A stretch of DNA of 45,391 bases from Iphinoe sp. HA4291-MV1. GTDB taxonomy: Bacteria > Cyanobacteriota > Cyanobacteriia > Cyanobacteriales > Nostocaceae. Under the pieces are notes generated by a model. The model did no database searches and was not told the DNA's origin. It saw only the letters and a list, made by a program, of their open reading frames with translations. Below, piece by piece: positions 3,706-17,790 of this stretch (its first letter is position 1; each line of letters begins with the position of its first letter). The position numbers were made by a program, and so were the translations under genes. The stretch is from NCBI GenBank assembly GCA_019359415.1, contig JAHHHH010000062.1:1-45391 (forward strand). Direction: 5' to 3'.

Positions 3706-4239
3706 TCACTTTTTGGGTGAGATAAGCATCATCATGTTTCGCCCTTCTTTTTTGGGCATTTGCTGAACCTCGCCAAATGGCTCTAAATCAGTCGCCATTT
3801 TCTTGAGCAATTGTTCTGCCATGTCACTGTGTTGGATTTCGCGACCTCTGAACATCACAGTTGCTTTAACTTTATCCCCATCTTTTAAAAAACGCTCTGC
3901 TTGCTTAACTCGTACATTGTAGTCGTGTTCTTCAATCTTGTAACGCATCTTCACTTCTTTGACATCAGCGGTATGCTGCTTTTTCCGAGCTTCTCGTGCC
4001 TTTTTCTCTTGCTCAAACTTGTATTTCCCATAGTCCATAATCCGACAAACTGGTGGATCAGCCTTGTCACTCAGCAGCACTAAGTCAAGCTCTTTTTCCT
4101 CGGCTAGTTGCAGTGCTTCCTGTGGGGTCAGGATTCCCAACTGAGAACCATCAGTATCAATAACCCGAATTTTCGGGAAGCGAATTCGTTCATTAATTTG
4201 GGGCAGATCGCGATTTCTTTTTTTTTCAATCACAGACAT
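3706..4239 (-). CDS. infC: Translation initiation factor IF-3
   Basis: 177 residues, the usual bacterial IF-3 length. The N-domain starts [21 protein letters not shown], the classic IF-3 opening, followed by the lysine-rich linker helix ([16 protein letters not shown]) and the C-domain ending [14 protein letters not shown]-3 binds the 30S subunit, keeps it free of 50S and checks the start codon. ATG at 4239 is the only sensible start; the Shine-Dalgarno is weak and the leader to 4440 is A/T-rich. No rpmI/rplT follow, so infC stands alone, as is common in cyanobacteria. Confidence 0.97.
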
Positions 4240-9050: not shown

Positions 9051-9083
9051 TACTTCTTTCTCACTTTATGCATATCTATTTAA

Positions 9084-9118
9084 CAGTTATCAGTTATCAG
9101 TTATCAGTTATCAGTTAC
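9084..9118. repeat. STRR heptamer array, CAGTTAT x5
   Basis: CAGTTAT occurs four times and CAGTTAC once without gaps. A second array of ACTCCTG-type units lies at about 9187-9230. These are short tandemly repeated repetitive sequences typical of heterocystous cyanobacteria. Confidence 0.85.
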
Positions 9119-9247
9119 CAATTTGAAGAAGAATTCAGCAATTCTGCAATTCTTGATTCAGAAGGAAGAAATAAAGAATTTAGTTTTCTGACTCCTGACT
9201 CCTGACTTGGTGACTCCTGACTCCTTCACTGTTTACTGCTCACTGAT

Positions 9248-9715: not shown

Positions 9716-9841
9716 TGTTCTTCTTCCTTACTTTGTTTCTGTTTGACAATTCCAAAGTAAGCTTGACGACTTGACACACGCCTCACCCGAACCGAGTAGT
9801 TTTGATAACCCGATTGGGTGAACCAAGTGGGGGATGATATG

Positions 9842-9990
9842 AGGGGCAAGGGGCAATGGGCAAGGGGCAAGGGGCAAGGGGCAAGGGGCAAGGGGCAATG
9901 GGCAATACTCGATTCCCACTTCCTAGTTCCCAGCTCTTTTGTTCCCAATTCCCAATTCCCAATTCCCAATTCCCCATGCCCAATTCCCAT
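9842..9990. repeat. STRR arrays GGGGCAA and AATTCCC
   Basis: About nine GGGGCAA/TGGGCAA heptamers (9842-9906) are followed by several AATTCCC units (9945-9985). The first block is the same heptamer family as in the insertions within menC and menE. They lie in the gap before proA. Confidence 0.85.
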
Positions 9991-14243: not shown

Positions 14244-15152
14244 ATGACTACAAAGCTGATTTCTTATCCCAACACAAAGTTATGGATGGCGGCAATAAAA
14301 CCGCCAATGTACAGCGTTGCTATTATGCCCATCTGGGTAGGAACGGCTATCGCTTTTGCGGAAACTAAGATGTTTCATGGAGCGATTTTTTCTACTTTCT
14401 TAGTCGCGGCAATTTTTATCCTCGCTTGGGAGAATCTCAGTAATGATGTTTTTGATTCAGAAACAGGAATTGACAAAAATAAACACCATTCTTTGGTGAA
14501 TTTAACCGGCAATAAGCTATTAATATTTTGGTTGGCAAATTTATTTTTAGGTCTGGGTTTGCTGGGAGTACTGGTAATAGCTTGGTGGCAACAAGACCTG
14601 ACTGTAATAGGAATAATTTTGCTTTGCTGTGTTTTGGGCTACATTTACCAAGGACCTCCCTTTCGTCTAGGATACCAGGGTTTAGGGGAAATCATTTGCT
14701 TTTTCGCCTTTGGTCCCTTACTTATGGCTGCAGTATATTACAGTCAAACTGCTAGTTGGTCAATAATAAGTTTTGCTGCTTCGGTGATTGTCGGAATTGC
14801 AACAAGTCTAATTTTGTTTTGTTCGCATTTCCACCAGGTTGAAGATGACATAGCAGCCGGAAAACGTTCCCCAATTGTCCGGATCGGAACACAAAAAGCA
14901 GCCCAACTTTTAACTTGGTTTACAGGCAGTATTTATGTCCTAACTTTACTGTTTGTGCTTTGTGGTATTTTCTCAGCATGGACTTTACTCAGTTTTGTGA
15001 GTTTACCCTTTGCGATAAAGTTATGTAGTCATGTTCGGCAAAATCACAACCAGCCAGAAAAAGTGAGTAACTGTAAATTCATTGCAGTATCAGTGCATTT
15101 TTGGAGTTGCTTGCTGTTTGGTTTAGGATTTTTGCTCGCAGGCTTTTCATGA
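14244..15152 (+). CDS. menA: 2-carboxy-1,4-naphthoquinone phytyltransferase
   Basis: 302 residues, a polytopic UbiA-superfamily prenyltransferase with eight or nine membrane segments. Two Asp-rich motifs bind the prenyl diphosphate: NDVFDSETGID (about residue 67) and HQVEDDIAAGKRSP (about 199). In cyanobacteria this enzyme attaches the phytyl tail in making phylloquinone. Its stop codon overlaps the menC start (ATGA), indicating translational coupling. Confidence 0.95.
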   Translation: MTTKLISYPNTKLWMAAIKPPMYSVAIMPIWVGTAIAFAETKMFHGAIFSTFLVAAIFILAWENLSNDVFDSETGIDKNKHHSLVNLTGNKLLIFWLANLFLGLGLLGVLVIAWWQQDLTVIGIILLCCVLGYIYQGPPFRLGYQGLGEIICFFAFGPLLMAAVYYSQTASWSIISFAASVIVGIATSLILFCSHFHQVEDDIAAGKRSPIVRIGTQKAAQLLTWFTGSIYVLTLLFVLCGIFSAWTLLSFVSLPFAIKLCSHVRQNHNQPEKVSNCKFIAVSVHFWSCLLFGLGFLLAGFS

Positions 15153-16264
15153 GATATCAATTTGAGTTTCGTCCTTATCGGCAGAAATTTGTGACTTCGC
15201 TCACCACAAGTCATGGTAATTGGGATATCCGCGAAGGAATTATTCTCCGTCTTACCGATGAAACAGGAAAAATCGGCTGGGGGGAAATTGCACCCATCAG
15301 CTGGTTTGGTTCAGAAACTCTAGAACAAGCATTAGAGTTTTGCCGTCAGCTTCCAGAGGAAATCACAGAAGAGACAATTTTCTCTATCCCTGACGAGTTA
15401 AGCGCCTGTCAATTTGGGTTTGAGTCTGCTTGGGGAGATGAGGAGGATGAGGAAGCAGAGGAGCAGGGGAGCAGAGGAGCAGGGGAGCAGAGGAGCAGGG
15501 GAGATGGGGAGATAGAAGAAAGTTCTTCCCATTGCCCATTGCCCCTTGCCCCTTGCCCCTTGCCCCTTGCCCCTTGTCCCCCCTATCCCCCCCTCCCCTT
15601 GTCCCCCCCTCCCCTTCTCACCTACAGTGCTTTGTTACCTGCAGGGGAAGCGGCGCTAGAGGGGTGGCAGAAGTTGTGGAAGGAGGGATATCGTACTTTT
15701 AAATGGAAGATAGGTGTTTACCCACTTACCCAAGAACTGAAAAATTTTCAATCATTCTGTCAAACTTTACCAGCTTCTGCAAAACTGCGCTTGGACGCCA
15801 ATGGCGGACTTAGTTACGAAGAAGCAAAGTTATGGCTGCAAACTTGCGACAGTATCAAAGCAAATGACGAATTTCTTCTAGAAGTTGAATTTATTGAGCA
15901 ACCTTTGTCTGTGGATCAATTTGAGGTGATGTTGGAGTTAAGCCATTGTTACCAGACAGCGATCGCTTTAGATGAATCTGTCGCCACACTCAACCAACTC
16001 GTCACATGCTTCAAACAAGGTTGGCGTGGAATTTTTGTGATTAAGCCTGGGATAGTCGGTTCACCATCTCGTCTGCGTCAGTTTTGTCAACAACATAAAA
16101 TTGATGCTGTGTTTTCATCCGTGTTTGAAACCGCAATTGGTAGACAAGCTGCACTTCAGCTAGCTGCTGAATTATCTCAGCTAACGCGAGCAGTGGGTTT
16201 TGGTGTCAACCATTGGTTTGCCCAAGAGGAGACTTTCCCAGAAGATTTATGGAAAAAACTTTAG
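15149..16264 (+). CDS. menC: o-Succinylbenzoate synthase with an in-frame repeat insertion
   Basis: 371 residues from ATG at 15149, overlapping menA by ATGA. MenC dehydrates SHCHC to o-succinylbenzoate in phylloquinone synthesis. Enolase-superfamily marks: TFKWKIG (catalytic Lys), LRLDANGG, EFIEQPLS, IALDESV (metal ligands) and FVIKPGIVGS. Residues about 96-157 do not belong to the family: an acidic stretch (GDEEDEEAEEQGS) followed by [17 protein letters not shown], encoded by STRR DNA. It sits between the N-terminal capping domain and SALLPAGEAAL, a place where an added loop may be tolerated. Whether the enzyme stays active is unknown; all catalytic residues are kept and the frame is open. 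Confidence 0.92.
   Translation: MRYQFEFRPYRQKFVTSLTTSHGNWDIREGIILRLTDETGKIGWGEIAPISWFGSETLEQALEFCRQLPEEITEETIFSIPDELSACQFGFESAWGDEEDEEAEEQGSRGAGEQRSRGDGEIEESSSHCPLPLAPCPLPLAPCPPYPPLPLSPPPLLTYSALLPAGEAALEGWQKLWKEGYRTFKWKIGVYPLTQELKNFQSFCQTLPASAKLRLDANGGLSYEEAKLWLQTCDSIKANDEFLLEVEFIEQPLSVDQFEVMLELSHCYQTAIALDESVATLNQLVTCFKQGWRGIFVIKPGIVGSPSRLRQFCQQHKIDAVFSSVFETAIGRQAALQLAAELSQLTRAVGFGVNHWFAQEETFPEDLWKKL
15455..15581 (+). repeat. 127-bp repeat, copy in menC
   Basis: Composite unit: three 16-nt GCAGAGGAGCAGGGGA repeats, a unique 27-nt core, then CATTGCC and five CCCCTTG heptamers. By direct reading it is an exact reverse complement of 16577-16703 in menE. Confidence 0.9.
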
Positions 16265-17790
16265 AAAACTTTGTGCAATCTGCATCTTGCCAGCCCCTAT
16301 CCAATGACTGGCTAATTTGTAATGATAGCCATTTCTTTGCTCAATTAACCGAACAACTCTATTTAGAATTAACGCAGTTTTCATACTATCGAGGCACACC
16401 ACTGAAAATTATCCTCGCTGAGCGCGAACCAGTGCGGTTTTTAGCAGGTTTTCTCGCCGCAAGTGCCGCTCGTTGTCCAGTTTTTCTTTGCAATCCCGAC
16501 TGGAAAAAACAAGAATTGCAACAGGTTTTTGATTTAGTCAAGCCAGATTTAATTTGGGGACTTGGGACTAGGAATTGGGGACAAGGGGCAAGGGGCAAGG
16601 GGCAAGGGGCAAGGGGCAATGGGCAATGGGAAGAACTTTCTTCTATCTCCCCATCTCCCCTGCTCCTCTGCTCCCCTGCTCCTCTGCTCCCCTGCTCCTC
16701 TGCTCCCTTATCCCCCTCATCCCCCTCATCTTTCTCACTTCCAACTCCTCACTCAGCATTTATCATGATTCCTACTGGTGGTTCATCGGGAAAGATAAAG
16801 TTTGCCATTCACACCTGGGAAACTTTAATGGCATCTGTGCTAGGATTTACAGGATATTTTTTACTTAATCATGTTAATTCTTTTTGTGTATTACCGCTCT
16901 ATCACGTTAGTGGTTTAATGCAATTTATGCGCTCTTTCACGACTGGTGGTAAGCTAGTTATTCTACCATTCAAAGAATTAGAACCTAATCAGATAGATAA
17001 TATTGAACCATCAAACTTTTTTATTTCTTTAGTACCCACACAGTTACAGCGTCTGCTGCAAAATTCAGAATTAACTAAATGGTTATCCCAATTTCAAACT
17101 GTTCTTTTAGGAGGTGCACCAGCATGGAATGAACTTCTTGAAAAAGCGAGATACTACAACATTCGCTTAGCTCCTACTTATGGCATGACAGAAACCGCCT
17201 CCCAAGTTGCTACCCTCAAACCAAATGAATTTCTTAATGGTAAAGATAACTGTACTCAAATTCTTCCCCATGCCTCTATAAAAATTTGCAATGAGCAAGG
17301 CGAGGAGTTGAATCAAAATAAAATAGGAAAAGTCACCATTTATTCTCAATCTCTAGCTCTGGGTTACTACCCGAAAACTTGGGAAAATCAGGATTATTTG
17401 CAAGTAGATGATTTGGGATTCTTAGATAACCAAGGTTATTTACATATCGTCGGACGTAACAGCGACAAAATTATTACAGGCGGTGAAAATGTCTATCCAA
17501 TAGAAATCGAATCAGCGATTAGAGCAACAGGAATGGTAGCAGATGTGTGTGTTATTGGCATACCAGATAAACTTTGGGGACAAGCAGTCACAGCAATTTA
17601 TATTCCCAAAGACTCGAATATCTCTGATATAGAAATCCGAAATCTACTAAAAGATAAACTTAGCAAATTTAAAATCCCCAAATATTGGATTCCTGTACAA
17701 ATCTTACCTCACAACTCCCAAGGCAAAATCAACCGCCAACAACTACAGCAAATAGCCACGAAATTTATATGTAGTGGAGATGTACAGTAA
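16249..17790 (+). CDS. menE: o-Succinylbenzoate--CoA ligase with an in-frame repeat insertion
   Basis: 513 residues from ATG at 16249, overlapping the end of menC by 16 nt. Adenylates o-succinylbenzoate and forms the CoA thioester. ANL-superfamily motifs: P-loop IMIPTGGSSGKIKFAIHT, LAPTYGMTETAS, the DLGFLD Asp, GRNSDKIITGGENVYP and the C-terminal Lys in NSQGKINRQQL. Residues about 103-169 (from [16 protein letters not shown] to SSFSLPTPHS) are a low-complexity insertion from repeat DNA, directly before the P-loop strand. The family has only a short linker there. Function is probably kept, since all motifs survive. Confidence 0.92.
   Translation: MEKTLENFVQSASCQPLSNDWLICNDSHFFAQLTEQLYLELTQFSYYRGTPLKIILAEREPVRFLAGFLAASAARCPVFLCNPDWKKQELQQVFDLVKPDLIWGLGTRNWGQGARGKGQGARGNGQWEELSSISPSPLLLCSPAPLLPCSSAPLSPSSPSSFSLPTPHSAFIMIPTGGSSGKIKFAIHTWETLMASVLGFTGYFLLNHVNSFCVLPLYHVSGLMQFMRSFTTGGKLVILPFKELEPNQIDNIEPSNFFISLVPTQLQRLLQNSELTKWLSQFQTVLLGGAPAWNELLEKARYYNIRLAPTYGMTETASQVATLKPNEFLNGKDNCTQILPHASIKICNEQGEELNQNKIGKVTIYSQSLALGYYPKTWENQDYLQVDDLGFLDNQGYLHIVGRNSDKIITGGENVYPIEIESAIRATGMVADVCVIGIPDKLWGQAVTAIYIPKDSNISDIEIRNLLKDKLSKFKIPKYWIPVQILPHNSQGKINRQQLQQIATKFICSGDVQ
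16577..16703 (-). repeat. 127-bp repeat, copy in menE (inverted)
   Basis: Five AAGGGGC heptamers, the core with AGAACTTTCTTCTATC, then three 16-nt TCCCCTGCTCCTCTGC units. Exact inverted copy of 15455-15581, 995 bp away. Similarity continues, imperfectly, past the 3' end. Confidence 0.9.

Follow-up and report, generated by a model that had tools for sequence, protein, structure and literature searches.

The small dispersed repeats (SDR) of Nostoc punctiforme, reportedly described by Elhai et al. in 2008, are said to have cores of 21–27 nt that often lie within tandem heptamers, and some of these elements are said to be mobile. Heterocyst-forming cyanobacteria carry STRR, that is, short tandemly repeated repetitive heptamers (the name appears in a reference of PMC4748335); the excerpt of PMC4692102 reports GGGGA(T/C)T repeats in Nostoc PCC 7120 and places 68% of the Nostoc repeats in intergenic regions. 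Farther afield, expressed protein genes of the mitochondria of Nematomorpha contain perfect inverted repeats of up to 284 bp (PMC6649704, in excerpt), and template switching between inverted repeats, with homogenization of the arms, is reported in yeast (PMC8604942, in excerpt). The arms of the inverted repeat analyzed here, one within menC and the other within menE, resemble the STRR and the GGGGA(T/C)T repeats in containing G-rich heptamer arrays that occur genome-wide and partly within genes, but differ from these in that a core is placed between two arrays and that the same composite occupies two coding loops, in exact, inverted copies. The arrangement of the arm core is similar to that ascribed to SDR, a likeness by description rather than by published SDR sequences. 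As in the coding palindromes of Nematomorpha, long perfect inverted repeats lie inside protein genes; according to the excerpt, however, both arms of the latter encode conserved protein regions, whereas those of menC and menE both encode variable loops, in two genes. The rewriting of one arm from the other in coding sequence, which is proposed below, parallels the homogenization in yeast, although the case in the excerpt involves short inverted repeats and the one considered here a 128-bp tract with a 995-bp spacer.

The window, that is, the whole stretch of DNA analyzed, is the complete contig C77 of 45,391 bases from a 7.36-Mb assembly in 140 contigs (95% complete), apparently of one of the Nostocales; the comparison set included eight genomes of the genus to which the strain belongs. 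Three overlapping genes on the + strand make up a menA-menC-menE run, with a divergent isochorismate synthase gene upstream. The first of these, menA (14244–15152), matches TIGR02235 (menA_cyano-plnt) with 410.6 bits against a cut-off of 225. The menC open reading frame, encoding o-succinylbenzoate synthase (15149, ATG, to 16264; the NCBIfam profile search was begun from 15152), scores above the cut-offs of PRK02714 and TIGR01927 and contains a 192-nt variable-loop insert; menE, encoding o-succinylbenzoate–CoA ligase (16249, ATG, to 17790), exceeds the cut-off of NCBIfam PRK07445.1-4 and contains a 201-nt variable loop. Both reading frames are open across the arms, in phases that differ between the two, and a stop codon is present in one of the six frames of the arm. 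Near the start of the contig, at 669–839, there are 12-nt tandem repeats (CCCCCACCAGAA and others).

Arm 1 (15454–15581, + strand, within menC) and arm 2 (16577–16704, − strand, within menE) are exact reverse complements over 128 bp, with mismatches immediately outside both ends; the exact inverted repeat in the two genes noted by the first-pass annotation is thus real, with a length of 128 bp instead of 127 bp. The arms are separated by a spacer of 995 bp. BLAST extends the match to 149 bp at 97% identity (15433–15581 against 16577–16725), and all four mismatches of the alignment fall in the outermost 21 bp, at the end facing the 5′ side of menC, that is, between the diverged outer ends of arm 1 (15433–15453, +) and arm 2 (16705–16725, −). 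An exact-pair scan of a 1.51-Mb sample of the window genome (stretches of up to 20 kb, 45 kb for the window; 40-mers with more than 60 places skipped) yielded three pairs in which a sequence of 100 bp or more recurs exactly and inverted in a single stretch, namely, the menC/menE pair and two that join both ends of a whole contig. The inverted identity of menC and menE is not due to chance. A BLAST search of the window genome with 127 bases of the arm produced at least 61 matches (a lower bound, given that 40 of the 338 first-look candidates were scored), exact only at the two arms; the next best full-length match among those scored was 82% identical over 125 nt. With up to 3 mismatches allowed, a pattern scan of the whole assembly located the 34-nt center of the arm in these two places only.

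Each arm is laid out as a G-rich tandem array, followed by a short core (ATAGAAGAAAGTTCTTC) and a C-rich tandem array. In arm 1, Tandem Repeats Finder delineates 3.1 copies of a 16-nt unit, AGCAGAGGAGCAGGGG, on the G-rich side (15454–15503, +), and 7.6 copies of the heptamer CCCCTTG, with CCCATTG variants, on the C-rich side (15528–15580, +), and the pattern search places the core ATAGAAGAAAGTTCTTCCCA at 15512–15531 (+); in arm 2, the G-rich side consists of 7.6 copies of GGGGCAA (16578–16630, +), the core lies at 16627–16646 (−), and the C-rich side holds 3.3 copies of the 16-nt unit CTCCCCTGCTCCTCTG (16655–16707, +). The tandem units of about 7 nt, at 7.6 copies per arm, are those of STRR, and the high genome-wide copy number of this repeat type is apparent from the arm matches counted above and from 247 period-7 arrays (a few of which are runs of N) in the 1.51-Mb sample. 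This sample is repeat-enriched: for 24 of its 80 stretches, the choice was guided by arm matches on or near the contig or place concerned, whereas 56, quoted separately below, tile contigs in which some matches also occur. The arms are therefore composites of a dispersed repeat family of the STRR (cyanobacterial tandem-heptamer) type. Openness of the reading frame is not a special property of the units: both strands are open in 592 of all 1172 heptamer classes, compared with 143 of the 249 sampled arrays.

A short core embedded in heptamer arrays, as ascribed to SDR, recurs at several sites. With one mismatch allowed, the core pattern is present in 9 places in the window genome (none for the reversed control), always between G-rich sequence on the left and C-rich sequence on the right, and in 4 of the 30 relatives (one site each in G004, G007, and G014, and two in G006). 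Among the 12 core sites with printed flanks besides the two in the window, 11 are likewise bordered by G-rich sequence on the left and C-rich sequence on the right (weakly so at L262), and the G014 site (L266) has neither. A second core, AATGCTCGATT, also located between G-rich and C-rich sequence, has 13 matches in the window genome, two of them overlapping, and none in the 30 relatives. The window itself contains further composites. One, at 9815–9990, runs from a GGGGCAA array through a ACTCGATT linker to an AATTCCC array and overlaps the 5′ part of a 92-aa frame on the − strand; a stretch 95% identical to it is found at G000:C62:32002-32150. In another, at 9077–9247, TTATCAG and CTGACTC arrays flank an AT-rich core, and partial matches of about 90–180 nt, mostly 75–95% identical, are repeated in all eight genomes of the genus.

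The two loops that hold the arms were surveyed in the window and 80 named relatives, and both were found in 76 of the 81 genomes (L088, L140, L152, and L160, in which the menE loop was not located, and L096, in which neither was, were left out of the loop pairs). The loops range from 36 to 213 nt in menC and from 57 to 249 nt in menE. Stop codons are absent from all 80 menC loops and all 76 menE loops, and frame breaks from all 80 menC loops; for menE, an intact frame was an imposed condition of the loop search. Arrays of 7–9-nt units are present in 49 of the 79 menC loops and 65 of the 75 menE loops of the relatives (shuffled means, 0.2 and 0.8, respectively). Even within the genus of the window strain, three inserts occupy the menC loop: a 186-nt insert of other sequence in G002–G005 (99 nt in G001), a different insert of 75–78 nt in G006 and G007, and the present composite in the window. 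In the structure model of the window MenC, residues 100–154 (numbered from codon 2) have pLDDT below 50 and are modeled without secondary structure after residue 106; the region separates the capping helix, which ends at 106, from the first barrel strand, which starts at 159. The MenE model, with a mean pLDDT of 54, was unusable. Because other stop-free repeats occupy the two loops in most of the approximately 75 relatives, both are permissive sites. A second MenC insert, beginning with TLSSTG, is located near the C-terminus in L022 and L023 (G001 and G003), so that the tolerance of MenC for inserts does not seem to be limited to a single site.

Taken together, these observations lead us to the interpretation, to which we assign a probability of roughly 0.7, that the arms are two copies of one composite: both loops likely held composites already, and one of these was then overwritten from the other, recently and in inverted orientation. 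The overwriting would have occurred by gene conversion or template switching between inverted repeats and would have left 128 identical bp next to a diverged end. Persistence of the insert could be due to the tolerance of the loops for extra residues and to the lack of stop codons in the frames used; the insert is probably neutral or mildly costly. Recent copying or gene conversion had already been proposed in the first-pass annotation, and the uniqueness of the pair in the assembly and the clustering of the mismatches at one end agree with that proposal. If one 149-bp unit had been duplicated and had then mutated uniformly, such clustering would have a probability of about 8e-4. Partial identity arises easily with tandem units, but a core together with an order of arrays is not a simple repeat. 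In the window-genome sample, 36 composites running from G-rich to C-rich make 630 pairs, 7 of which share an identical linker, and the window pair shares 126 nt across core and linker compared with 59 nt for the next pair. Local copying or homogenization is therefore favored by the unique center of the arm, the finding of three exact pairs only, the contrast of 126 with 59 nt, and the one-sided mismatches.

Some sharing between the two loops is usual. When the menC and menE loops of each of the 75 relatives are aligned locally, the score averages 23.9 in inverted and 23.8 in direct orientation, whereas species-shuffled loop pairs score lower (19.8 and 19.2, respectively), as if the loops of one genome drew on one repeat vocabulary. 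Such sharing could also come about without any exchange between loops, if the same composite arrived in each of them independently from a third copy. The dispersal of the composite family in the genome is compatible with this scenario, and a case of another element makes it concrete: in Nostoc sp. JL34 (L151), one dispersed element occurs in both the menC and the menE loop (2888–2981 and 3963–4056), in direct orientation and in different frames, and an equally similar copy (98%) lies elsewhere in that genome. With this third copy, L151 was rejected as a parallel case of local copying, and it indicates that element sharing can arise by independent arrival. For the window, the assembly, at 140 contigs and 95% completeness, could lack a third copy that served as the source, which would count against local copying. 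Nevertheless, independent arrival appears unlikely here: the whole assembly holds no third 34-nt center within 3 mismatches, no other arm match among those scored exceeds 82% identity over most of the length, and the mismatches are confined to one end.

With respect to the direction of the presumed loop-to-loop copying, the exact tract starts, on its menE side, in GGGGACAAG, which is also present in 4 of the 6 genus relatives in which the menE loop was seen, the remaining 2 having GGGGACAA. The presence of GGGGACAAG in menE of relatives suggests copying from menE to menC. This direction is only tentative, however, given that arrays starting with GGGGACAA are present elsewhere in the window genome (C4 and C83) and that the menC flank, TTGTCCCCCCTATCCCC, also lies beside a core in G007 (L264).

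It is very unlikely that the second arm is an assembly artifact that duplicates the first. The stretch is repeat-rich and belongs to a 140-contig draft, but each arm fits the reading frame of the gene that carries it and has its own flanks, the outer 21 bp differ between the arms, and both arms lie well inside a 45-kb contig.

The first-pass annotation further envisaged that the arms form a 127-bp duplex in the menA-menC-menE mRNA that would serve as an RNase III target. Such a duplex is thermodynamically possible: the arms pair with an energy of −308 kcal/mol, they are fully paired in the minimum-energy fold of 1341 nt, and the window genome encodes two RNase III enzymes. A selected RNA device, in which cleavage by RNase III would tune the output of menC and menE, is nonetheless highly improbable. 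Both arms lie within coding sequence, and each of them alone folds on itself at about −74 kcal/mol, so that competing local hairpins would probably form first during transcription. The long inverted pairing of the loops was found in the window only, that is, in 1 of the 76 genomes, and is not kept in relatives: the longest exact inverted stretch common to both loops is 128 nt in the window, followed by 34, 23, and 20 nt in relatives. The excess of the inverted over the direct score in the 75 relatives is 0.15, compared with 0.53 for shuffled pairs (p = 0.64); with inverted similarity equal to direct similarity, there is no sign of selection for pairing in these genomes. A conserved mRNA hairpin was rejected on the same two counts, and of the proposed duplex only the physical possibility stands, not a role.

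That the arms serve as a DNA inversion switch for the 995-bp spacer is barely credible: exact inverted repeats permit RecA-type exchange in principle, but after inversion the menC N-part would run on into antisense sequence (a 206-aa frame) and the menE 3′ part would lack a start of its own, so that the rearrangement, instead of swapping the menC 3′ and menE 5′ parts as initially suggested, would break both genes and, with menC truncated and the menE start removed, encode nothing useful; furthermore, the assembled menC/menE order is that of the relatives in which both loops were located, and the long inverted arms are not conserved.

Beyond the menC/menE pair, the composites show a predominant order of their arrays. 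For tracts of at least 4 G-runs or C-runs separated by no more than 120 nt, the window-genome sample contains 20 G-first and no C-first composites, along with two G-G pairs. Under a broader definition (any 7–9-nt unit with unequal G and C and a gap of up to 120 nt, G-G and C-C pairs being set aside), the ratio of G-first to C-first is 59:8 in the whole sample and 19:3 in the 56 stretches that were not picked near matches; in two further genomes, it is 24:2 (G013) and 28:0 (G010), and in the 80 named loci 46:1, of which 7:0 comes from outside the men region. The loops follow the same pattern: with the window included, a G-rich first half is combined with a C-rich second half in 58 of the 80 menC and 54 of the 76 menE loops, and the reverse is seen in 5 and 0, respectively. 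There is a C-first minority, amounting to 8 of 67 pairs in the whole window-genome sample and to 6 of 42 when tracts are defined more loosely; some single unit classes show no order, and units in which G equals C are too scarce to reveal one. When the gap is widened from 120 to 1000 nt, the added pairs divide into G-first and C-first as 10:12 in the window-genome sample, 3:11 in G013, 4:8 in G010, and 5:27 in the named loci; because these additions are mostly C-first, the preference for G-first belongs to close composites and does not extend to distant neighbors. Selection for hairpins does not explain the order, since both orders make hairpins.

In three organisms, including Nostoc PCC 7120, G-rich repeats are reported to lie close after the stop on the coding strand and close before the start on the non-coding strand (PMC4692102, in excerpt), a placement that implies the same G-first, C-last order across an intergenic gap. 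The rule was not found stated as such in the excerpted text of PMC4692102 in a literature search for the order, and we do not claim that it is unpublished. A distinctly speculative reading, which we consider improbable, is that the composites record a distinct way of building DNA, in which G-rich units would be added at the 3′ ends on either side of a break that is then closed over a short core. The G-first, C-last order on either strand would then correspond to a head-to-head arrangement, as at fused telomeres. If this were the case, the menC and menE loops would be coding sites at which such repairs have persisted, and a subsequent exchange between two of them would have produced the inverted copy.

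Overall, the menC/menE pair looks like the product of recent inverted copying of a cyanobacterial repeat of a known type, in two tolerant protein loops, and is ordinary in kind and unusual in degree. It exemplifies the entry of a noncoding repeat family into coding loops of a core pathway, with apparent copying between the loops, and cautions that long exact inverted repeats need not be regulatory. The G-first, C-last order, observed in three genomes, is the more useful lead, in that it constrains how these abundant cyanobacterial repeats arise, and the bias merits a separate study. The menC and menE loops, for their part, provide a natural record of repeat turnover across dozens of species.
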